A DNA stretch of 32,290 nt from Gammaproteobacteria bacterium (GTDB lineage Bacteria; Pseudomonadota; Gammaproteobacteria; Chromatiales; Chromatiaceae): NCBI GenBank assembly GCA_020445205.1, contig JAGRHA010000200.1, forward strand, positions 1 to 32,290. Direction: 5' to 3'. A program made the position numbers and the translations under genes. Shown piece after piece: positions 1,490-25,546 of this stretch; positions within the stretch are counted from its first letter, which is position 1; each line of letters starts with the position of its first letter. Under the pieces are notes generated by a model, which searched no databases, was not told where the DNA came from, and worked only from the letters and a program-made list of their open reading frames with translations.

Positions 1490-2131
1490 CAGCACCTGCA
1501 GCGTGCCGTGGCGTGCGACGTGCGGCCGCTTAGGCCGCGGCGCGCCAGCGATCGTGGTGATGCAGCAGTCGCGCCACACACGCCGCACGAACGCCACGAC
1601 GCCGTGAATGCTGGGTGTCGTCCGCGCTGCCGCGTCGCATGCAGTGTGCGCCACGACGCATCGCTGCGGCGGCGATCGCCCGATCGGTCGGGACACCCGC
1701 CCAGCCTATAAATGCTTTCAATGTGTGACTGCCAGGCCCGTCTATCCGCGGCCCTTTTCGACACCCAAAGACCGCCGTAAGCACTCCCCCGTCTGCCATC
1801 CTGCCGTATGACGTCGATCGTCTGATCGAGACCCCGCGGCCCGCGTCTATGGCTGCGACGCCATGTGGCGCCACGCCGCGAATGCGTTGAAAAACATCGT
1901 CTTTCCCTTGCCGGACGCACAACCACCGTGGTTCGTGCGCGGCATTGTCGCGGCCGCCTTTGCCGCGGTGCCAGCGCCTTCGACGGCCTGGCGGCGGAAA
2001 ACCATAGACCCTGTTCTATGGATTTTTCGATGAGGATTTATTGGAAGCCGATACGAGCGCGTTCCTAAGCTTCACGCCACATCGAGGCAATCCTCACCGA
2101 ACCGCTGAAACAGCAAAGACAGGAGTTGAAC
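1490..2131. promoter_or_regulatory. Non-coding region upstream of the cbb/cso operon with two inverted repeats
   Basis: No credible gene lies in these 642 bp; the short open frames look random. Two perfect inverted repeats stand out. TCGATC-GTCT-GATCGA lies at 1814-1829. CCATAGA-N6-TCTATGG lies at 2002-2021, and its symmetry continues beyond one mismatch as AAA (1998-2000) and TTT (2023-2025). The second lies in an AT-richer patch 110 bp before the cbbL start, where a regulator of a RuBisCO operon would bind. It does not fit the LysR T-N11-A spacing (the symmetric T and A are separated by 12 nt), so CbbR binding is not established. No convincing -35/-10 pair was found. The distal part up to about 1980 shows nothing else. 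Confidence 0.5.
1522..1538 (+). terminator. Weak hairpin downstream of pyc
   Basis: GCGGCC (1522-1527) and GGCCGC (1533-1538) form a perfect 6-bp stem with a 5-nt GCTTA loop, 33 bp after the pyc stop. No T-tract follows, so intrinsic termination is doubtful. It could be a Rho-assisted or mRNA-stabilising hairpin. Confidence 0.3.
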
Positions 2132-3547
2132 ATGGCCCTGAAATCCTACGACGCCGGCGTTAAAGAATACCGCGACATGTATTGGACGCCGGACTACGTG
2201 CCGCTGGATACCGATCTGCTCGCATGCTTCAAGTGCACCGGCCAGCCGGGCGTGCCGCGCGAGGAAGTCGCCGCCGCGGTGGCCGCGGAATCGTCGACCG
2301 GCACCTGGTCGACCGTATGGTCGGAACTGCTGACCGACCTCGAGTACTACAAGGGCCGCGCCTACCGCATCGAAGACGTACCCGGCGACAACGAGTCGTT
2401 CTACGCCTTCGTCGCCTACCCGATCGACCTGTTTGAAGAAGGCTCGGTGGTGAACGTGCTGACCTCGCTGGTCGGCAACGTGTTCGGCTTCAAGGCACTG
2501 CGCCACCTGCGCCTCGAGGACATCCGCTTCCCGATCGCCTACATCAAGACCTGCGGCGGTCCACCGGCCGGCATCCAGGTCGAGCGTGACCGTCTCAACA
2601 AGTACGGCCGTCCGATGCTCGGTTGCACCATCAAGCCGAAACTCGGCCTGTCGGCGAAGAACTACGGCCGCGCGGTCTATGAGTGCCTGCGTGGTGGCCT
2701 CGACCTGACCAAGGACGACGAGAACGTCAACTCACAGCCGTTCATGCGCTGGCGCGATCGTTTCGAGTTCGTCGCCGAAGCCATCCAGAAGGCCGAGCAG
2801 GAGACCGGTGAGCGTAAGGGTCACTACCTCAACGTCACGTCGGGCACCGTCGAGGACATGTTCGAGCGCGCCGAGTTCGCCAAGGAACTGGGCATGCCGA
2901 TCATCATGCACGACTTCCTCACGGGCGGCTTCACGGCGAATACCAGCCTCGCCAACTGGTGCCGCAAGAACGGCATGTTGCTGCACATCCACCGTGCCAT
3001 GCACGCGGTCATCGACCGTCATCCGAAGCACGGTATCCACTTCCGCGTACTGGCCAAGTGTCTGCGTCTGTCGGGTGGCGACCACCTGCACACCGGCACC
3101 GTGGTCGGCAAGCTCGAAGGCGACCGTGCGTCGACGCTGGGCTTCGTCGACCAGCTGCGCGAATCGTTCGTCCCCGAAGACCGCTCGCGCGGTGTGTTCT
3201 TCGACCAGGACTGGGGCTCGATGCCCGGCGTGTTCGCGGTCGCCTCGGGCGGTATCCACGTCTGGCACATGCCGGCACTGGTCACGATCTTCGGTGACGA
3301 CTCGGTGCTGCAGTTCGGTGGCGGCACCCAGGGTCACCCGTGGGGCAACGCCGCAGGCGCCGCGGCCAACCGCGTCGCACTCGAGGCCTGCGTCAAGGCG
3401 CGCAACCAGGGCCGCGAACTCGAGAAGGAGTCTCGCGACATCCTCACCGAAGCCGCGCGTCACAGCCCGGAACTCGCGATCGCCATGGAGACATGGAAAG
3501 AGATCAAGTTCGAGTTCGACACCGTAGACAAACTCGACGTTGGCTGA
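2132..3547 (+). CDS. cbbL: RuBisCO large subunit, form IA
   Basis: Catalyses carboxylation of ribulose-1,5-bisphosphate in the Calvin cycle, here as the cargo of an alpha-carboxysome. The 471-residue length is normal for form I. Catalytic elements are visible in order: KPKLGLS with K168, carbamylated K194 in the TKDDEN segment with Mg ligands D196 and E197, HIHRAMH with H287, and loop 6 VVGKLEGDR with K327. These correspond to spinach K175, K201, D203/E204, H294 and K334. The N-terminal [14 protein letters not shown] is typical of form IA. The start was set at ATG 2132 because AGGAG (2121-2125) lies 6 nt upstream; a TTG at 2126 in the same frame overlaps that site. Residue 192, next to the carbamylation site, is Leu where the form I sequences I recall have Phe. 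First gene of the carboxysome operon, 52 bp before cbbS. Confidence 0.98.
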
Positions 3548-3599
3548 TCAGGCCCGCCACAGCTGACGACAGATAACCGTACACAAAGAGGACTACATC

Positions 3600-3944
3600 A
3601 TGGCCAATACCCAGCAGGTCGGTGACTACCAGACCGCGCAAACGCTCGAAACCTTCGGCTTCCTGCCCAAGCTCACCCAGGACGAGGTCTACGACCAGAT
3701 CGCCTACCTGATCGCACAGGGCTGGACGCCGGCCATCGAGCACGAGCATCCGTCGCAGGCCAGCAACCACTACTGGACCATGTGGAAGCTGCCCATGTTC
3801 GGCCAGCAGGACATCGATGCCGTCGCGGCCGAGATCGACGCCTGCCGTCGCAGCTATCCCGATCACCACATCCGGTTGATCGGCTACGACAACTACACCC
3901 AGAGCCAGGGCGTTTGTTTCGTGGTGCATGAAGGTCGCGCCTGA
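3600..3944 (+). CDS. cbbS: RuBisCO small subunit, form IA
   Basis: A 114-residue small subunit that caps the L8 core to make L8S8 RuBisCO. The conserved N-terminal ETFGFLP strand (17-23), [11 protein letters not shown] (58-68), AEIDACR (77-83) and [11 protein letters not shown] (88-98) are present. The start ATG at 3600 is preceded by AAAGAGGA (3586-3592). It lies between cbbL and csoS2, the canonical alpha-carboxysome order. It is the proper comparator for the divergent small-subunit-like gene at 18874-19188, which lacks the N-terminal strand found here. Confidence 0.98.
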
Positions 3945-12410: not shown

Positions 12411-12491
12411 ATAGGGCCTCAAGGCCGACGTTCCAATGACGGGGTGGCGCAGGGTGTCAGCAGGTTTGAATCCCTACCAGAGAGGCCCTGT
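12411..12491 (+). promoter_or_regulatory. Possible RNA switch: long-range helix sequestering a ribosome-binding site
   Basis: AGGGCCTC (12413-12420) is perfectly complementary to GAGGCCCT (12482-12489), and the helix can be extended by T12412-G12490 and A12411-T12491, giving about 10 bp that enclose 61 nt. The 3' arm contains AGAGG (12481-12485), the only plausible ribosome-binding site for ATG 12494. The 5' arm can instead pair locally, GGCC (12415-12418)-TCAA-GGCC (12423-12426), which would free the site. The two foldings exclude each other, as in translational riboswitches. No known riboswitch class was recognised. Confidence 0.4.
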
Positions 12492-12493
12492 TG

Positions 12494-13156
12494 ATGAGTT
12501 ACACGACGCAGCGTTGTTCCAAAGGTCATACGCACTGGACCATTAACCAAGTGAAGTCGGATGAATGTGGCATGGCCTGTGTCGGCATTCTGCTCAAGGA
12601 GCACGGCATCAACGTATCGCTGGCCGAACTGCGTCAGGCATCACAGGGATTCGAAGGCGGCTACAGACCCGGCATCGGCGATGTCGTTCGCGGCGATCCG
12701 GCACGGATCCAGGCGCAGCACATGATGGCTGCGATCATGCGTCATGACGAAGGACAGGTCATCACCCAAGCCAGGGCCGGTGAATTCGGCACCCAGTGCT
12801 CGAATCTCGCGGCATTGCTGGGTAAGTACGGCCTGAAGGCCGTCGCCTCATACAACCACGGCGGCGCCAAGAAGGCGATGCGGCAGAAGGCGAAGAAGAC
12901 GCAGTCGAGCATCGCGCTCGTACGCTGGGTGCAGAAGGGTCAGGACGCCGGCGGCCACTTCGTCGTCATCCAGCGCGCCAATACACATCTGTTCAGTCAC
13001 TCCGAGTACTGCATCATGGATCCGATCTACGGTCTCAGCACGCAGACGCTGCCCACCATGCCCGGCCACCCCGGCGGCAATGCACCGCAGTACCATCCGC
13101 CGAACTCGGGTGGCGCCGTCGGCTACCTCATGGGGTGGCATGTCGTCGTGATCTGA
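12494..13156 (+). CDS. C39-like papain-fold cysteine peptidase, stand-alone
   Basis: A 220-residue protein with the papain-type triad order: Q19 (oxyanion) and C25 in NQVKSDECGMACV, H155 in GGHFVVIQ and D176 in IMDPIYG. This pattern fits C39-like or AvrRpt2-like peptidase domains. There is no signal peptide, membrane segment or ABC-transporter fusion, so it is not a typical bacteriocin-processing exporter. Substrate unknown; an effector or toxin role is possible. The start is ATG 12494 (or TTG 12491) with AGAGG inside an inverted-repeat arm. It converges with the TIR-domain gene, 142 bp apart. Its DNA looks native in GC content. Confidence 0.6.
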   Translation: MSYTTQRCSKGHTHWTINQVKSDECGMACVGILLKEHGINVSLAELRQASQGFEGGYRPGIGDVVRGDPARIQAQHMMAAIMRHDEGQVITQARAGEFGTQCSNLAALLGKYGLKAVASYNHGGAKKAMRQKAKKTQSSIALVRWVQKGQDAGGHFVVIQRANTHLFSHSEYCIMDPIYGLSTQTLPTMPGHPGGNAPQYHPPNSGGAVGYLMGWHVVVI

Positions 13157-13298: not shown

Positions 13299-14294
13299 TC
13301 AACGCAGCCAGCCATTGCTGCGCAACTGTTCCAACATCCGATCACACGCACCGGGCTCGACCTTGGCGGCACTCAGCAGCAGTTGCTGGGATAGCCCAAG
13401 ATCGTCGCCTTTGGCCTGGATGCCCGTACAGGCGGCACTGAGCAGCGTGCACATCACGGGCGAGTGCTCGAGCTGATCGTAGACCTGCTGGATCTGCTCA
13501 CGCAGTTTTCGCCGCCGGGCGTTGTCGTCCGACCGCGTCGGTATCGCCCCCACGCGCTGCAGCACCCAGACACGACCACCACGGTCCGTACCGCTGATCG
13601 TGCCCTGTTCGCGCCCTGTCGTGTGGATACCGACGACGTCGCGCTGGGTCTGACCGAAGCCGCTCGCCACCGTTTCGAGCGTCAGCATCTGCGTACCGTC
13701 ATCGTAGGACCAATTGCCGTGCACCGGGATGTGCATGCTGAACAGCTCGTGCACGCTGGGATCGGCAAACTGTGCGAGCGCGCCCGCGGCATCGAGACGT
13801 CCCGTTCCTTCGACCTGACCGTTGCGCCGCAGGTCCAGTTCGAACGTCGCCTGGCCCAGTCCGAACGCATCGACGGTGGCGCGCCATCGCCCGGGAAACA
13901 TCTCACCGGCCGGGGGAGAAAAACCCGAGCCCAGAATTGTTTCCAGCAATATGGCGTTGCCGTGCTTCTGGTCCGATGAATCGATGTAAACGAGGTTGGG
14001 AAGGCCTTGTGGCAGTGGCGTACCATCGAGGACGTAAGGCACGATCTTCTTGCGCAACTCGTACGCCAGGTTCCACTCGTTCTGCACCCACTCGGAACGG
14101 GCGGCGTCGCCGGACCAGACGAGCAGGAAGAAGTCGCAGTCGTCAATTCCCTGACGTATGCGTTCAGGCAGATCGTCTCCGGGATAGATCTCTTCCTGAT
14201 CGAAAAACGCCTGCACGCCGTAACGCCCCAACAGGTCACGGATCCTGATGGCTTGGTGCCGGTCACGGTGGCTGTGACTGATGAAGACTTCCAT
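13299..14294 (-). CDS. TIR-domain protein with beta-rich middle and helical C-terminus
   Basis: A 331-residue protein. Residues 1-110 form a TIR domain: EVFISHSHRD at the start, FFDQEEIYPGDDLPERI, FFLLVWSGDAARSEWVQNEW and RKKIVPYVLDGTPLP. E73 in NEWNLA sits where TIR NADases carry their catalytic Glu. Residues about 134-247 look like a small beta-barrel sensor or ligand domain (GRWRATVDAF, DLRRNGQVEGTG, GTISGTDRGGRVWVLQ). Residues 258-331 are helical. Bacterial TIR proteins can be NAD-degrading defence effectors or signalling adaptors; which applies here is open. ATG 14294 has GAGGTG upstream. Convergent with the peptidase gene. Confidence 0.75.
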   Translation of the reverse strand: MEVFISHSHRDRHQAIRIRDLLGRYGVQAFFDQEEIYPGDDLPERIRQGIDDCDFFLLVWSGDAARSEWVQNEWNLAYELRKKIVPYVLDGTPLPQGLPNLVYIDSSDQKHGNAILLETILGSGFSPPAGEMFPGRWRATVDAFGLGQATFELDLRRNGQVEGTGRLDAAGALAQFADPSVHELFSMHIPVHGNWSYDDGTQMLTLETVASGFGQTQRDVVGIHTTGREQGTISGTDRGGRVWVLQRVGAIPTRSDDNARRRKLREQIQQVYDQLEHSPVMCTLLSAACTGIQAKGDDLGLSQQLLLSAAKVEPGACDRMLEQLRSNGWLR

Positions 14295-17577: not shown

Positions 17578-18162
17578 TCAACCTGCCCTGCGCTGGGCGA
17601 CGTAGACCTCGGGTCGCGGCAGGCGACGCGTCTTTTCCACCATGCGCAGCGTGGAAAGATTGTTGTTGTAGCGCGGCACATCGCCGAGGTCGACCCAGGC
17701 GACGGCGTTCGACTCGTGACTGCCGGGGATGTCGAGGCGATCATCGATCTCGACCAGAAAACGCATGTCGAAATGGCGGTGTCGTGGACGCCAATGACCT
17801 GCGGGTATGGTGTGGATGTCGACGTCGAACAGCTCACGGTTGACGAGGCGGATGTGTTCCGGTGCCAGCCCCGTCTCTTCCTGCGTCTCGCGCAAGGCGA
17901 CACGCAGGATGTCGTGATCGCTGTCGGCGTGCCCACCGGGCTGAAACCACTGGAAATGTTTGCCATGGTGCAGCAACAGCACACGGTCGCGCGTCGGGTT
18001 GACGACCCACACCGACCCCGTGACATGCCCATCCCACTGATCGCGATCGAAACAGTTCGGGTGTTGCTCGACGAAACGCAGCGCGCGCGCGACGTAACCC
18101 GCTTCGGCATTGAACGGCGTGCGGTGCTGCAACAACAACCCAATCAGTATCGATCGATGCAT
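17578..18162 (-). CDS. Nudix hydrolase co-transcribed with csoS1D
   Basis: A 194-residue Nudix hydrolase, a family that cleaves nucleoside diphosphates linked to other moieties. The Nudix box is at residues 77-99: GHADSDHDILRVALRE followed by TQEETGL, with the metal-binding RExxEE core intact. The first Glu of the consensus is His, as in a GGHAD subgroup. The ATG at 18162 lies 2 bp after the csoS1D stop, so the two are almost certainly one transcript. A metabolite clean-up role linked to CO2 fixation is inference; in some alpha-cyanobacteria a Ham1-type NTP pyrophosphatase neighbours csoS1, a loose parallel. Substrate cannot be told from sequence. Confidence 0.85.
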   Translation of the reverse strand: MHRSILIGLLLQHRTPFNAEAGYVARALRFVEQHPNCFDRDQWDGHVTGSVWVVNPTRDRVLLLHHGKHFQWFQPGGHADSDHDILRVALRETQEETGLAPEHIRLVNRELFDVDIHTIPAGHWRPRHRHFDMRFLVEIDDRLDIPGSHESNAVAWVDLGDVPRYNNNLSTLRMVEKTRRLPRPEVYVAQRRAG

Positions 18163-18164
18163 GT

Positions 18165-18797
18165 TCAGGTCCCCGCCGGATTGTGGATCGCGGCGACCGC
18201 GGCCGCCGCGGCTTCATCGACGTCGCCCTCACGTCCGGCCAGTGTGAGCCGTCCGTAGGCACCCACCGCGCGTACATCGATCAGGGTGATGTTGGCGGCC
18301 TTCTCGGCCTGGTTGGCCGCATACACGATGTATCCCGCGGGTTCGGTCTCGAGGATGAACATGCTCTGACCGGGCAGGATCATCGAACCCCGCCGATCCT
18401 GGCGGTTGATGAGCACGGTGTGATCGGGCGTCATGCCACGGATGATCTCCTGCCAAGCGATGCGGCAGGGTTCACGGTCTTCCTGCGCCGCCCCCATGCG
18501 GTTGAGCACGATACGGCCGGCCTCGACGACGTCACTCTGATCACGCTGGTGGATCACCATCGAGCCATAGGCACGTTCGACGACCTGTTGCGCGAGGTGT
18601 ACCCGCGTCGACTTGAGCGCGATGTCGGTCAGGCGGTGCACGGCCATGCCGGGCGATACCTCGACCCACAGGCAGGCATCACCGGGCACGGGCAGAAAAC
18701 CTTGCGACACCGTTGCCATGTACTCGGCAAGCTGTGGCTGCAAGGAATCGATGTACACATACGTGCGCAACGAGATGTTGGCGATGTGCGGTTGCAT
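18165..18797 (-). CDS. csoS1D: Carboxysome shell protein CsoS1D (tandem BMC, trimer)
   Basis: A 210-residue tandem-BMC protein whose trimers stack into a gated, large-pore shell tile thought to admit bulky metabolites such as RuBP. It matches Prochlorococcus CsoS1D closely from memory: [66 protein letters not shown] and the terminal [20 protein letters not shown]. The N-terminal extension of cyanobacterial forms is shorter here. The start is ATG 18797, or GTG 18803, which is better spaced (8 nt) from GGGGG. It lies 76 bp after the small-subunit-like gene and 2 bp before the Nudix gene. It is outside the main csoS operon, as in other proteobacteria. Confidence 0.96.
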
Positions 18798-18873: not shown

Positions 18874-19188
18874 TCAGAACGCCGGTTGCGGCTGGTGCAC
18901 GACGAACGAGAAGCGACTGTGGAACGAGAAATCCTCGATTTCCAGCCGGATATGGTGGTCGCCATGTTCCTCGCGGCAACGATCGATTTCGTTGTACAGG
19001 CGCTGCGGGTCGCCACCATAGCAGCGTGGTGTACCCCACACGCGCCACTTGGTATAGCGCGGGGACATCTGCTCGGCGTGCTGGATGCAGATCACGCAGC
19101 CCTTGCGCAGGCAGTGGCCGATCTGCCACAGCACGCGGTCGCGGTAATCGTCTCCGGTCGTAAAGGCGGTTTGCGCTGGCGATTTCAT
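18874..19188 (-). CDS. Stand-alone RuBisCO small-subunit-like protein, cysteine-rich
   Basis: A 104-residue CbbS homologue lacking the N-terminal ETFGFLP strand of true small subunits. Aligning it with the cbbS of this window by eye, [10 protein letters not shown] matches [20 protein letters not shown] matches [27 protein letters not shown] matches [17 protein letters not shown], and FSFVVH matches VCFVVH. It has five cysteines (26, 31, 34, 56, 71). N-terminal truncation with added cysteines recalls the SSU-like modules of CcmM in beta-carboxysomes, which bind RuBisCO and respond to redox. ATG 19188 follows AGGAG by 9 nt; longer upstream frames lack support. First gene of the operon with csoS1D and the Nudix gene. 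Binding RuBisCO is inference. Confidence 0.85.
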
Positions 19189-19987: not shown

Positions 19988-21667
19988 ATGACGTCGGCAG
20001 TCGCTTATCTGATCGTCGTGCCCCTGCTCGCCGCCGCCGGCGGTTGGCTCGCGGCGACGCGCTCGCGGCGTCTCGCCGTGCGCATCAGTATCGCCGGCGC
20101 TGCGCTCACCTTCTTCATCGCACTGTTCACGCTGTGGCAGACGCTGACCGGCACGCCAGCGGCGCAGCTGTCGTTGGGTGCACACTGGGGCACGCTGTTG
20201 TTCGACCCGCTGAGCACCCTGATGGCGGTGCTGATCTCGGGCATCAGCCTCATCGTGCACGTCTACTCACGCCGCTACATGGCCGGCGAGCAGGGCTACG
20301 CGCGCTTCTTCGTGCTGCTCGACCTCATGACCGCCGCACTGTTGCTCATGGTGAGTGCCGGTGATCTCGTCACGCTGCTCGTCGCCTGGCACCTGATCGG
20401 CGTGCTGCTGTACTTCCTGCTCGGCCAGGAGATGACCAATCACAGCGCACACCGCTATGCTGCGTGGACCTTCCTGACCTACCGCTTCGGTGACCTGCCG
20501 CTGGTGCTCGCCGCGGTGCTGCTTTACCAGGCCTTCGATACCTGGTCGCTGACAGCGATCTTCTCCGCATTGAGCACCGCACCCGACACGCAGACGGTGT
20601 TCGGTCTGCCACTCGCCGAGACCGTGGCGACACTGATTGCGCTGTCGGCCTTCGCACGTTCCGCACAGTTCCTGTTGCACACTTGGCTGCCGTACACCAT
20701 GAGCGGACCGACACCGGTCTCGGCCCTGATGCATGCCGGCATCGTCAACGCCGGCGGCTTCCTCATCAATCGCTTCGCGCCGCTGTTCGTGCACACCGAC
20801 GGCGTGCTGCATTGGATCTTCGTCGTCGGCCTGGTCACCGCGGTGGTCGGTTCGGTCCTGATGCTGGCGCAGAACGACATCAAGAAAGCACTCGGCTATT
20901 CGACCATGGGCCAGATGGGATTCATGGTCATGGAATGCGGCGTGGGTGCGTTCTCGCTCGCGGTATATCACCTGATCGCACACGGCCTGTTCAAGGGCAC
21001 GCTGTTCCTCGGCGCGGGCGGCGTGATCCGCCAGGCGCGCCAGAACGACGGCGTCCCCAAGGACGACCTCTACACCTTCGTCGTCGAACGCCGCCCTGCC
21101 CGGCAGCGTCGCCCCTGGTTGCTCATGGCGGTGGTCACACTCGTCGTGCCCGTGACCATCCTCGTGCTCGCGCACTGGGTGGTGGCCAGCGACTTCTTCC
21201 AGAAGCAGGGCGCGATCGTGCTGTTGTTCTTCGGCTGGGTCACCGGTGCGCAGCTGATCTTCGCGACCTACCGCATGCGCACGGAGAACACCTGGCGCCT
21301 CATGGGACTGATCCTGTTCTCGTTCACCATCGTGGTGGTCGGCTACACCCTCATCGCCCACGCCTTCGATGTCTTCCTGTATCCCGACGAGGTGTTCCGC
21401 TCGCAGATCTACGCCTCGGCCGGCATCGATATCTTCTGGTTCGACATCCTCGTGATCCTGGTCACGCTGGTGATCGTGGCGGGCTGGCTGGTCACGTATT
21501 ACGCGCAGAACAACGGTGGTCGGCGCAGCCTGCAGGCAAGCGCGGTGTGGCGCAGCTTCTACACCCTCATCGCGCGCGAGTTCTTCGTCGCGGCCGCCTA
21601 TCGTCGGCTGTCCGATGCCCTGCTTGGCGCGGCTTCGCGTCTCAACGTGCTGCTGAGGTGGTCTTGA
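19988..21667 (+). CDS. dabB: DabB, membrane subunit of the DAB inorganic carbon pump (NuoL-like)
   Basis: A 559-residue polytopic membrane protein of the complex I/Mrp antiporter (NuoL/ND5) family. Typical segments are FDPLSTLMAVLISGISLIVH, LLLMVSAGDLVTLLVAW, TPVSALMHAGIVNAGGFLI, DIKKALGYSTMGQMGFM and HGLFKGTLFLGAGG. In DAB complexes DabB is thought to move cations that drive hydration of CO2 to bicarbonate by DabA. ATG 19988 follows GGGAGG; the upstream open frame is unsupported. No other Nuo subunits are adjacent, and dabA lies two genes on, which makes the DAB assignment firm. One base separates its stop from the next gene. Confidence 0.94.
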   Translation: MTSAVAYLIVVPLLAAAGGWLAATRSRRLAVRISIAGAALTFFIALFTLWQTLTGTPAAQLSLGAHWGTLLFDPLSTLMAVLISGISLIVHVYSRRYMAGEQGYARFFVLLDLMTAALLLMVSAGDLVTLLVAWHLIGVLLYFLLGQEMTNHSAHRYAAWTFLTYRFGDLPLVLAAVLLYQAFDTWSLTAIFSALSTAPDTQTVFGLPLAETVATLIALSAFARSAQFLLHTWLPYTMSGPTPVSALMHAGIVNAGGFLINRFAPLFVHTDGVLHWIFVVGLVTAVVGSVLMLAQNDIKKALGYSTMGQMGFMVMECGVGAFSLAVYHLIAHGLFKGTLFLGAGGVIRQARQNDGVPKDDLYTFVVERRPARQRRPWLLMAVVTLVVPVTILVLAHWVVASDFFQKQGAIVLLFFGWVTGAQLIFATYRMRTENTWRLMGLILFSFTIVVVGYTLIAHAFDVFLYPDEVFRSQIYASAGIDIFWFDILVILVTLVIVAGWLVTYYAQNNGGRRSLQASAVWRSFYTLIAREFFVAAAYRRLSDALLGAASRLNVLLRWS

Positions 21668-21668
21668 T

Positions 21669-22427
21669 ATGTCACTGATCGCTTACCTGCTGGTCGCGGT
21701 GTTTCTACCGCTGTTCCCGCTGAGCATGGTGTTCAACCGCGTGTTTGCGCAGGTACACAACACCTGGCTGCGCATCGCGCTGCTGGTCGGCTGGCCGTTG
21801 ACCGGTGTCGCGTTGTTGGCGGTCCTCGGCGACTCCCCACCGCAGTGGTTGGTGTACTGGGGTGTAGCGACCGCCCTGCTGTACGGCTTTCGCGCCCTCG
21901 CCCTGCGCGACCTCGCGCTCTGGCTCGCGCATCTCGCGACCTCGGTGTGGGCCCTGATGTGGCTGCCCGCGGCACTTGGCCAAACCGCCGGCACGCTGCC
22001 CGCGGCATTGTTGGCCTTCGCCGTACCTCTGGCCCTGCTGGCCTGGCTGACCGGTCACCTGGAAAAGCTGTTCGGCGCGGCGTACGCCGGTGCACTCGGC
22101 GGCCTGGCGACCGACCTGCCCCGTCTGTCGTGGCTCCTGGTGCTCGTGGTGCTCGCCGTGATCGGTACGCCGCTGTTCCCGGGGTTCTTCGCCCTCCTGG
22201 GCATGGTCAAAGAATTGCTGCCGGCCATGCCCGTGACGGCAGTCGGCGTGTTACTGGTCTGGATGCTGTGGGCCTGGGCGGGCATGCGCATGTTGCAGGG
22301 GCTGATCGTCGGTGACCCCGGCGGCCGCGCCAATGCCGACATCGGCCTTGCTCACACCGGCATCCTCGGCATGCTGCTGGCCATGTTCGCGGCCGCCGGC
22401 ATCTGGCTGACGGGGAGTCTGGTATGA
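21669..22427 (+). CDS. NuoM-like membrane protein of the dab operon
   Basis: A 252-residue protein with about six to seven membrane helices, located between dabB and dabA. The segment YAGALGGLATDLPRLSW followed by VVLAVIGTPLFPGFF resembles the C-terminal part of NuoM/MrpD antiporter subunits, so it looks like a shortened antiporter-type subunit. Its role is not known to me; it could be a third subunit or an assembly partner of the DabA-DabB complex. It starts 1 bp after dabB and overlaps dabA by four bases (ATGA), so stoichiometric co-translation is likely. Confidence 0.8.
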   Translation: MSLIAYLLVAVFLPLFPLSMVFNRVFAQVHNTWLRIALLVGWPLTGVALLAVLGDSPPQWLVYWGVATALLYGFRALALRDLALWLAHLATSVWALMWLPAALGQTAGTLPAALLAFAVPLALLAWLTGHLEKLFGAAYAGALGGLATDLPRLSWLLVLVVLAVIGTPLFPGFFALLGMVKELLPAMPVTAVGVLLVWMLWAWAGMRMLQGLIVGDPGGRANADIGLAHTGILGMLLAMFAAAGIWLTGSLV

Positions 22428-25400
22428 GCATTCCCATGGGACAGAATCTGCGCATACGCGCCATGGTGTACGTGGCGGCCGAGCCCGTGCCGTACTTCTG
22501 GCCGATGCGCAGCTTCATCCACCACAACCCATTGCACGGTCTGGAGCAGCTGCCGTTTCAGGAGGCCGTCGAGAAAGGCGCGAAGCTGTTCCATGCGCGC
22601 GGTTTCCTGCCGCGCAGCGCGTATCAACGCTACCTTGCCGAGGGCCGCGTCGACACCACGACACTGCAGGAGCAGGTGCAGCGCTTCATTGCGACGCGCG
22701 AACCGGCACTGCCCATCGATGTCGCACGCTGGCTCATGGCGGAACTCACGAACCGCCAGCACAGCGTCGTCGAGCCACTGAGCGTCGCCGACAGCACCAA
22801 CGTGTATGCCAAGCTGCAGGGCGCCACCACATCGATCATCGAGCCCTCGCCGCAACAGCTCGCTGCCGAACTGGAGCGACGCCTGCTGCACGAGCGCCCG
22901 CTGTACGAGGCGTTCGACGATCTGTATGGCACGACCATCGGCAGCGATCTCGACGAGCAGGTGATCCGTGCCTGCCTGGATTTCTTCGACGAAGGCCAGT
23001 CGGTGTGGGACATGCCGCATCGCGAGCAAGGCTTTTTCAGCGCCTGGCTGGGTGTGTCCGGCAACGCCGTACGGCGCACGCTCGCTGCTCTCATGGGTAC
23101 GCAGGCGCTCGACGCGCCGGTCGAGGCGGAGCGCGTGATCGCATTGGTACTCGCGCGACTGCAGATTCCGGAGAACGAATGGGTCGGCTATTTCACACGC
23201 GAACTCACGCGCTTGCACGGTTGGGCGGGATTCATCCGCTGGCGCTCGAATGCGATGAACTATTACTGGCAGCAGCACTATCCCGGCGACCTCGTCGACT
23301 ACCTCGCGGTGCGCCTGCTGTTGTCCTTGACCCTGCTGCAGCAGCAGGCCGGGAACCGGCGACCGTTCACCTTGCAGGCGCTGCGCGAAGCGATCGTCGA
23401 CAGGCCGTATGCGCGTTTCCTGCAGCTCGAGCTCGAGCGCGAGGGCGCGCTGCTGGCCATGGCACGTGACATCGAACAGACGCTGCAGCGTGGCAAGGCG
23501 AGCGATGTCGAGCGTCTGTATTTCGCATACCACGCGCGCAAGGGACACCGCGAAGCACAACGCCAGGCCGATGCGCTGCTGGCGCTTGCGGATCAGGTAG
23601 GAGAGCGCGCAGCGCTGCTGGCCCTGTCACCCAGTGAACTCGCGCAGCTGCTCACACTGTTGCAGGACTTCGAGCGCGAAGAGGGCCTGGTTTGGCTCAA
23701 GGCCATGGAAGCCCGTGCAACCGCACAGTTGTGTGACGGCCTGCGCCTGAGCGCACCGCCGCCGCGCGACAAACGCCCGTTCGCCGAGGTGTTGTTCTGT
23801 ATCGACACACGCTCGGAGCGCATCCGTCGTCATCTCGAATCGGTCGGCGACTACCACACCTACGGCATCGCCGGGTTCTTCGGCGTGCCCGTGAGCTTCA
23901 TGGAACTCGGCAAGGGCAGCGAAAACCATCTCTGCCCGGTCCTGCTCACGCCCAAGAACCTGGTGATCGAGATGAGCTCGATCGGCGTGCAGGACACCGC
24001 CGCGGTCACGGCATTGGAAAAGGCCATGCACGAGCTCAAGGAATCGGTGCTGACACCGTTCGTGACCGTCGAGGCGATCGGTCTGCTGTTCGGCCTCGAT
24101 ATGGTCGGCAAGACGCTGCTGCCCACCACGTACAACCGTTGGCGTTCACATCTGCACGAGCACAAGCCGCTGACCCACCTGGTGCTCGACAAACTGGATC
24201 GCGAGCAGGCCGATTCGATCGTGCGCGCGGTGCAGCGCGCGGTGATCGTCAAGGCGGTGGAACAGGAGTTCGCGGTCGAACCCGAAGTGATCACCGACAG
24301 CATGATCAAGGAGCTGCGCGAGGCGGCCCTGGGACAGCGCAGCGACTGCCCGGCGTGCAGCACGCTGAAGCAGATCGACGGCGCGCGTCTGGAGAAGTTC
24401 ATCCTGCGCCTGCGCAACGCCTACCGCATCAACCCCGCGTTCGCACAATTGCAGATGGAGCGTCTCGGACGCATCGGCTTCTCGCTCGACGAGCAGACCC
24501 GCTTCGTCGCCGTGGCCCTGCGCTCGATCGGCCTGACCAACGACTTCTCGCGTTTCATCCTGCTGGTCGGCCACGGCAGCACCTCGGAAAACAATCCCTA
24601 CGAATCGGCGCTCGACTGTGGTGCCTGCGGCGGAGCGCACGGGCTGGTCAGTGCGCGTGTGCTGGCACAGATGGCGAACAAGCCGGAGGTGCGGCGACGC
24701 CTGCGCGAAGGTGGCATAGACATACCCGACGATGCGTGGTTCGTGCCCGCGTTGCACAACACCACGACCGACGAGATCACGTTGCACGACCTCGAACTGC
24801 TGCCGCCCTCGCACCTGGTCTACCTCGACCGCCTGCGCGATGGCCTCAACTCGGCCTCACGCCTGTGTGCGCAGGAGCGCCTGCCGAGCCTGCTCGAAGA
24901 CACGCGCGACCTCAAACCCGCGGCGGCATTCCGGGCCGCACAGCGCAACGCCATGGACTGGTCACAGGTACGCCCCGAGTGGGGGCTGTCGCGCAACGCC
25001 TACTTCGTGATCGGTCGACGCACCCTGACGCAGTCCAAGGTGCTCGACGGCCGCGCGTTCCTGCATTCCTACGACTACCGGGTCGATCCCAAACGCCGCC
25101 TGCTCGAGAACATCCTCACGGGTCCGCTCGTGGTCGGCCAGTGGATCAACATGGAGCACTATTTCTCGACCGTCGACAACGAGAAGTTCGGCAGCGGCAG
25201 CAAGGTTTACCACAACGTTGCCGGCCGCTTCGGCGTGCTCAGCGGCAACCTCAGCGACCTACGCACGGGCCTGCCGGCGCAGACCGTCCTCGACGACGGC
25301 CATCCCTATCACCAGCCCATGCGCTTGATCACGGTGATCGAGGCACCACTGGCGCACGCGCGCAAAGCGATCGAGAGCGTGGTCGCGATCAAGCGCTTGG

Positions 25401-25546
25401 TGCGCAACGGTTGGATCCGCCTGCTGGTCGTGGATCCGGAGACGGCGATGATCTGCCAATACGACGACGGTGAGTGGACCCAACGCGAATTCGTCGAGGC
25501 CGAACAGGCCCAAGACCCCATCTATACCGAGGCTCGCAGCGCATGA
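22424..25546 (+). CDS. dabA: DabA, carbonic anhydrase-like subunit of the DAB carbon pump (DUF2309)
   Basis: A 1040-residue member of the DUF2309 family. DabA has a beta-carbonic-anhydrase-like zinc site that, energised by DabB, turns CO2 into bicarbonate vectorially. The zinc and catalytic residues are present: C459 and D461 in FCIDTRSE, H717 in VGHGSTSENNP and C732 in SALDCGACGG. The 15-residue His-Cys spacing equals that recalled for Halothiobacillus DabA2. The length is that of the longer DabA1 type rather than the roughly 830-residue DabA2 type, with about 85 extra residues between the two halves of the site. It overlaps its neighbours by 4 bp at both ends. Soluble or membrane-associated on the cytoplasmic side. 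Confidence 0.95.
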   Translation: MSIPMGQNLRIRAMVYVAAEPVPYFWPMRSFIHHNPLHGLEQLPFQEAVEKGAKLFHARGFLPRSAYQRYLAEGRVDTTTLQEQVQRFIATREPALPIDVARWLMAELTNRQHSVVEPLSVADSTNVYAKLQGATTSIIEPSPQQLAAELERRLLHERPLYEAFDDLYGTTIGSDLDEQVIRACLDFFDEGQSVWDMPHREQGFFSAWLGVSGNAVRRTLAALMGTQALDAPVEAERVIALVLARLQIPENEWVGYFTRELTRLHGWAGFIRWRSNAMNYYWQQHYPGDLVDYLAVRLLLSLTLLQQQAGNRRPFTLQALREAIVDRPYARFLQLELEREGALLAMARDIEQTLQRGKASDVERLYFAYHARKGHREAQRQADALLALADQVGERAALLALSPSELAQLLTLLQDFEREEGLVWLKAMEARATAQLCDGLRLSAPPPRDKRPFAEVLFCIDTRSERIRRHLESVGDYHTYGIAGFFGVPVSFMELGKGSENHLCPVLLTPKNLVIEMSSIGVQDTAAVTALEKAMHELKESVLTPFVTVEAIGLLFGLDMVGKTLLPTTYNRWRSHLHEHKPLTHLVLDKLDREQADSIVRAVQRAVIVKAVEQEFAVEPEVITDSMIKELREAALGQRSDCPACSTLKQIDGARLEKFILRLRNAYRINPAFAQLQMERLGRIGFSLDEQTRFVAVALRSIGLTNDFSRFILLVGHGSTSENNPYESALDCGACGGAHGLVSARVLAQMANKPEVRRRLREGGIDIPDDAWFVPALHNTTTDEITLHDLELLPPSHLVYLDRLRDGLNSASRLCAQERLPSLLEDTRDLKPAAAFRAAQRNAMDWSQVRPEWGLSRNAYFVIGRRTLTQSKVLDGRAFLHSYDYRVDPKRRLLENILTGPLVVGQWINMEHYFSTVDNEKFGSGSKVYHNVAGRFGVLSGNLSDLRTGLPAQTVLDDGHPYHQPMRLITVIEAPLAHARKAIESVVAIKRLVRNGWIRLLVVDPETAMICQYDDGEWTQREFVEAEQAQDPIYTEARSA

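Follow-up and report, generated by a model that had tools for sequence, protein, structure and literature searches.

The 32,290-nucleotide contig JAGRHA010000200.1 of a gammaproteobacterium of the Chromatiaceae (GenBank assembly GCA_020445205.1; analysed over its full length and called the window below) carries on its minus strand, from 19188 to 18874 including the stop codon, a gene for a stand-alone Rubisco small-subunit-like protein of 104 residues, for which the label SSUL is adopted here. The plus strand across the same interval is likewise open, but its reading frame does not give this protein. In cyanobacteria, CcmM and the activase are known to contain SSUL modules. The explanation that we tentatively favour is that the protein in the window derives from Rubisco and serves the CO2-concentrating module of Chromatiaceae as an accessory, possibly with a predicted thiol switch made of C26 and C31. 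What is new here, on the sequences compared, is this invariant pair of cysteines. The gene is carried by certain purple sulfur bacteria and by relatives of theirs, where it lies beside carboxysome or bicarbonate-pump genes; if the explanation is true, a separate SSUL in bacteria with alpha-carboxysomes, often next to bicarbonate pumps, is a candidate link between carbon uptake and fixation.

SSUL matches the Pfam family RuBisCO_small and shares 31% identity with the window's CbbS across 85 aligned columns; a search of NCBIfam with the protein gave no match. Its structure model (mean predicted local distance difference test score, pLDDT, 83) places helix A at residues 12-29 and strand A at 32-38, and aligns both with the solved RbcS 1rbl (Z 12.9, root-mean-square deviation (rmsd) 2.8 over 95 residues) and with the SSUL of the Nostoc Rubisco activase, 6has (Z 10.9, rmsd 3.2 over 83 residues). 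Pfam homology, model and structure comparison together show the alpha-beta-beta-alpha-beta-beta fold of RbcS. The gene is under purifying selection: of six orthologue pairs, five gave a ratio of nonsynonymous to synonymous substitution rates (dN/dS) of 0.09-0.21, and the remaining one was saturated in dS.

Within the family, 210 genomes were searched (a search at the level of the order covered the same 210), and 28 of them gave a match at E <= 1e-12. The match in G433 (L073), an ordinary CbbS, was removed, leaving 27 Chromatiaceae carriers, which together with G049 from another family provide the 28 orthologues used throughout. Residues listed as near-universal in CbbS are S9, L11, P12, Y25, E36, W48, L53, P54, F56 and E67 (PMC9164163, Table 2, C. 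necator numbering). The SSUL orthologues retain W48 (28/28) and E36 (26/28) and in part P54 (18/28) and E67 (11/28), while Y25 (2/28), L53 and F56 (0/28 each) are mostly gone; the N-terminal arm motif of RbcS is present in none of the 28, versus 38 of 39 ordinary RbcS. Because the arm and most of the near-universal residues are lost, SSUL lacks the residue signature of a holoenzyme subunit, and it is probably an RbcS-fold protein that is not built into Rubisco. CcmM, too, has been reported to lack key RbcL-binding motifs, and the protein may nonetheless act like an SSUL module.

The protein contains exactly five cysteines (26, 31, 34, 56 and 71), and the 114-residue CbbS of the window (3600-3944) two; the high density claimed by an earlier sequence-only reading of this DNA is thus borne out by the count. 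With the other 18 window proteins as background (67 of their 6499 residues are Cys, 1.03%), the binomial probability of at least five cysteines in 104 residues is 0.0046. The excess is shared by the family: the orthologues average 5.3 cysteines (range 4-7) in a core of ~92 residues, versus 1.5 in ~118 for 36 ordinary CbbS. C26, C31 and C71 are present in all 28 orthologues, C56 in 19 and C34 in 17. At the same positions in the 36 CbbS, C71 is found in every sequence and the other four in none, and three form IC RbcS have C71 in all three and C26 in two. C26 and C31 together are therefore invariant in SSUL and never occur jointly in 39 ordinary sequences. C71 would be an inherited RbcS thiol; C34 and C56 are optional and appear to be lineage-specific.

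The sequence-only reading had proposed a redox switch in which C31 and C34, separated by two residues at the end of the first helix, were the prominent pair. The stated location is off, as the model puts C31 after the end of helix A and C34 within strand A. Since position 34 is a cysteine in only 17 orthologues (elsewhere A in five, R in three, S in two and G in one), the pair is not conserved and so fails the check that the reading itself had named; a C31-C34 CxxC motif was rejected as a family trait. What remains of the proposed thiol feature is the invariant C26 and C31. C34 and C56 occur both in 13 orthologues, C34 only in four, C56 only in six and neither in five; a C34-C56 pairing was rejected as a family trait because each cysteine is lost independently of the other. 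Six orthologues have a cysteine at position 76 (L054, L055, L056, L059, L061 and L067; one genus code, g27), all of them without C34, and none of the 17 orthologues with C34 has it; this mutual exclusion probably reflects shared descent, the two positions lying at opposite ends of the domain by topology.

Distances between C-beta atoms were taken from idealised helix C-cap geometry (helix end at residue 29, residue 30 in a left-handed turn) and not from the coordinates of the SSUL model. In this geometry, the mean distance between residues 26 and 31 is 3.9 A (1.3-6.3 A over 100 angle combinations, the lowest values being clashes), and that between residues 31 and 34, which stand as i and i+3 where a strand begins, is ~11 A. 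As a plausibility argument, C26 and C31 come close enough around the end of helix A to be bonded; flanking this end, they would form a reversible disulfide that alters the corresponding end of the protein. Granted the rest of the explanation, we regard such a switch as possible while somewhat short of probable, and the chance that the pair is mere packing is nearly as high.

The strongest rival, a doubtful but serious one, keeps the accessory protein and treats its invariant cysteines as packing residues that have no redox role. C71 and C26 recur in CbbS and form IC RbcS, respectively, and we know of no redox switch in ordinary CbbS or form IC RbcS with these cysteines; moreover, the idealised geometry would put residues 26 and 31 where any two side chains touch. 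However, position 31 is a cysteine in every orthologue where CbbS has Trp or Leu, whereas a packing site should vary among hydrophobic residues.

The genomic setting of SSUL was surveyed in 28 loci, with neighbours scored as the nearest among the genes searched for and not from full annotation. On one side lies csoS1D (11), the cbbL of the cso operon (13), cbbR (2) or none of these (2; G030 and G483). A carboxysome or Rubisco gene is thus nearest in 26 of the 28 genomes, including the two with cbbR, and csoS1D or cbbL in 24. The cbbR neighbour stands at the end of the cso operon in G481 and on a short contig apart from the cso genes in G005. On the other side, 20 loci have a bicarbonate transporter, namely a BicA-type SulP protein (15), DAB (4) or SbtA (1). 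The identity of BicA was profile-tested at L033 alone (836 bits, just below the cut-off of 880), and the other 14 BicA-type neighbours are 70-78% identical to the L033 protein; the DAB match in G497 is weak (25-47%), and SbtA in L042 is supported by Pfam. None of the 28 loci lacks both kinds of neighbour, and SSUL is linked to cso genes as a gene of the alpha-carboxysome locus. CsoSCA is encoded in 26 of the 27 Chromatiaceae carriers (it is absent in the incomplete G017) versus 75 of the 210 genomes. Against this background, SSUL would stay outside the L8S8 holoenzyme and act as an accessory; it could dock on Rubisco from outside, as the SSUL modules of CcmM do, or alternatively link Rubisco to bicarbonate uptake.

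Among the carriers with species names are Thiocystis minor, T. violacea, Allochromatium humboldtianum, A. palmeri and Thiococcus pfennigii. In a sample of the class, SSUL was found at E <= 1e-15 in two of 369 genomes, that of the window and G049, with a nine-row profile that may miss divergent members; CsoS1D is present in 68 of the same 369. A search of plasmids returned 110 records, none of which reached 60% identity or covered 80% of the query; the two plasmid matches that were inspected are form I cbbS genes between cbbL and cbbX.

Several observations weigh against an accessory with a C26-C31 switch. Of the 75 genomes of the family with CsoSCA, 49 have no SSUL match, and carboxysomes therefore manage without SSUL. 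In seven of the 28 loci, no bicarbonate transporter was seen (G003, G005, G017, G049, G415, G458 and G555; some of these contigs are short), and G554 could not be judged in this respect. The neighbourhood does not show which partner SSUL touches. The geometry assumes a left-handed residue 30; this residue is Gly in 22 of 28 orthologues, and in a second structure model, of the Thiococcus protein, helix A stops at the counterpart of residue 26.

G483 (L129) is a single-contig genome of the Allochromatium group, 99% complete, that has SSUL together with cbbL, cbbS and csoS2. No CsoS1 match was found in it at E <= 1e-6, it is not among the CsoS1D matches, and its csoSCA is broken over three frames; the locus is apparently a decaying carboxysome locus. 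Its SSUL adjoins BicA, has C26, C31 and C71 intact and shows a ratio of nonsynonymous to synonymous polymorphism (pN/pS) of 0.22-0.35 versus five sister sequences. G483 speaks for a role of SSUL that would be independent of the shell; it is one genome, and the loss may be recent. A bolder proposal, which we consider unlikely, extends this: an independently evolved stand-alone SSUL would tie bicarbonate uptake to Rubisco, oxidation of C26 and C31 would adjust how it docks on Rubisco or on the transporter, and the shell would be dispensable.

It is more doubtful still that SSUL takes the place of CbbS, as an alternative small subunit, in some L8S8 complexes. This would fit the PF00101 match, the 13 genomes in which cbbL is the nearest searched-for gene downstream, and PMC3368242 (2011), the relevant passage of which labels a gene of A. 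vinosum as a second small-subunit gene. However, Y25, L53 and F56 are lost, and each cbbL-bearing locus among those examined has an ordinary cbbS too.

That the cysteines make up a metal site (structural or redox; Cys4 or Cys/His) is very improbable, even though there are up to seven cysteines per core and histidines at position 37 (26/28) and position 75 (27/28). All of C26, C31, C34 and C56 are found together in only 13 of 28 orthologues, five genomes have neither C34 nor C56, and C71 and H75 would sit at the other end of the domain, judging from the fold topology of the model. The metal site that the sequence-only reading offered as its alternative was accordingly rejected as a conserved Cys4 trait of the family.

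The analogy drawn by that reading to the disulfide of CcmM fares no better. The disulfide-forming cysteines of CcmM SSUL1, as mutated in PMC8580825, are C261 and C279, and two pairs in Synechocystis have the same spacing of 18 (PMC13214033). In an alignment of three solved SSUL sequences, one of which does not have the C261-C279 pair, C279 corresponds to C71 of the SSUL family, and C261 to position 53 (MAFFT) or, if a two-residue gap is shifted into the loop, to W51. W51 is invariant (28/28) and residue 53 is never a cysteine, so the CcmM-equivalent disulfide cannot form in the SSUL family, and this pairing was rejected as a family trait. The suggested weakening of Rubisco binding by a disulfide in reducing cytosol also has its direction reversed: according to the binding results given in PMC8580825, oxidation weakens the binding of M35 to Rubisco from ~0.2 uM to ~1 uM, and M58, the longer form of CcmM, shows no such difference there. 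A CcmM-type switch through C31-C34 or C56-C71 is therefore the least probable reading, C71 matching C279 while C34 and C56 are unconserved, C261 has no cysteine counterpart, and i and i+3 in a strand lie ~11 A apart.

Features of the window that bear on SSUL
Feature	Coordinates	Strand	Basis
Stand-alone Rubisco small-subunit-like protein (SSUL), 104 residues; C26, C31, C34, C56, C71	18874..19188	-	PF00101 E 9.8e-13; RbcS fold
C26 codon, helix A; Cys in 28/28 orthologues	19111..19113	-	position counted and conservation
C31 codon, just before strand A; Cys in 28/28 orthologues; in CbbS (n=36) Trp 32, Leu 4	19096..19098	-	position counted and conservation
C71 codon, helix B; ancestral RbcS cysteine; 28/28 orthologues, 36/36 CbbS	18976..18978	-	position counted and conservation
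csoS1D, tandem bacterial microcompartment (BMC) shell protein; next gene on the SSUL strand	18165..18797	-	PDB 7dhq E 1e-91; CsoS1D 3f56 E 1.2e-87
Nudix hydrolase adjoining csoS1D; pairing kept in related loci	17578..18162	-	domain match and locus comparison
dabB-like protein of the proton-antiporter family, divergent neighbour, inorganic-carbon uptake; start picked by eye	19988..21667	+	PF00361, PF00662; pairing with dabA
dabA, inorganic-carbon transporter subunit	22424..25546	+	PF10070 E 6e-258
alpha-carboxysome operon genes cbbL and cbbS; CbbS served for comparison	2126..3944	+	sequence and domain matches

The Nudix hydrolase gene lies beside csoS1D in 11 of the 12 loci that bear csoS1D, the window included, and L034 ends at csoS1D; that the enzyme helps to remove Rubisco inhibitors is a guess. 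A gene for a P-II family protein (PF00543; 25474-25866, plus strand) overlaps the end of dabA, an arrangement that recalls SbtB beside SbtA. A hemerythrin-domain protein (PF01814; 14497-15108, plus strand) has a hydrophobic N-terminal part and is possibly an oxygen carrier or sensor. Genes for a TIR-domain protein (13299-14294, minus strand) and a C39-peptidase-like protein (12491-13156, plus strand) lie between the cso operon and the csoS1D cluster.

A literature search found no description of SSUL beyond PMC3368242, most subscription papers being outside its reach. The passage of that paper on A. vinosum notes the second small-subunit gene, contains no analysis of it and assigns it no role. 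This gene, left unexplained in 2011, is very probably a member of the SSUL family; in G485, which its gene order suggests to be A. vinosum, SSUL adjoins cbbL.

In a tree of 70 sequences, the SSUL family forms one clade (support 100/100). A split supported at 94/75 groups it with form IC RbcS, and the SSUL modules of CcmM and Rca with green CbbS (85 columns, long branches); an origin of the SSUL family separate from the CcmM and Rca modules is suggested, not shown. Like CbbS and RbcS, SSUL belongs to PF00101 and has W48, W51, E36, C71 and R81; unlike them, it has no arm, has lost Y25, L53 and F56, and has gained C31 in all members, with C26 common only to form IC. The modules of CcmM in beta-carboxysomes and of the Nostoc Rca resemble it in their RbcS fold, in the missing N-terminal arm, in the loss of most of the same RbcL-contact residues and in their tie to a CO2-concentrating system; that of CcmM docks into the groove that two RbcL and the neighbouring RbcS leave between them (PMC8580825). 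Unlike these modules, which come as repeats or fusions, SSUL is a single stand-alone domain in hosts with alpha-carboxysomes, falls into a clade of its own and has no equivalent of C261.
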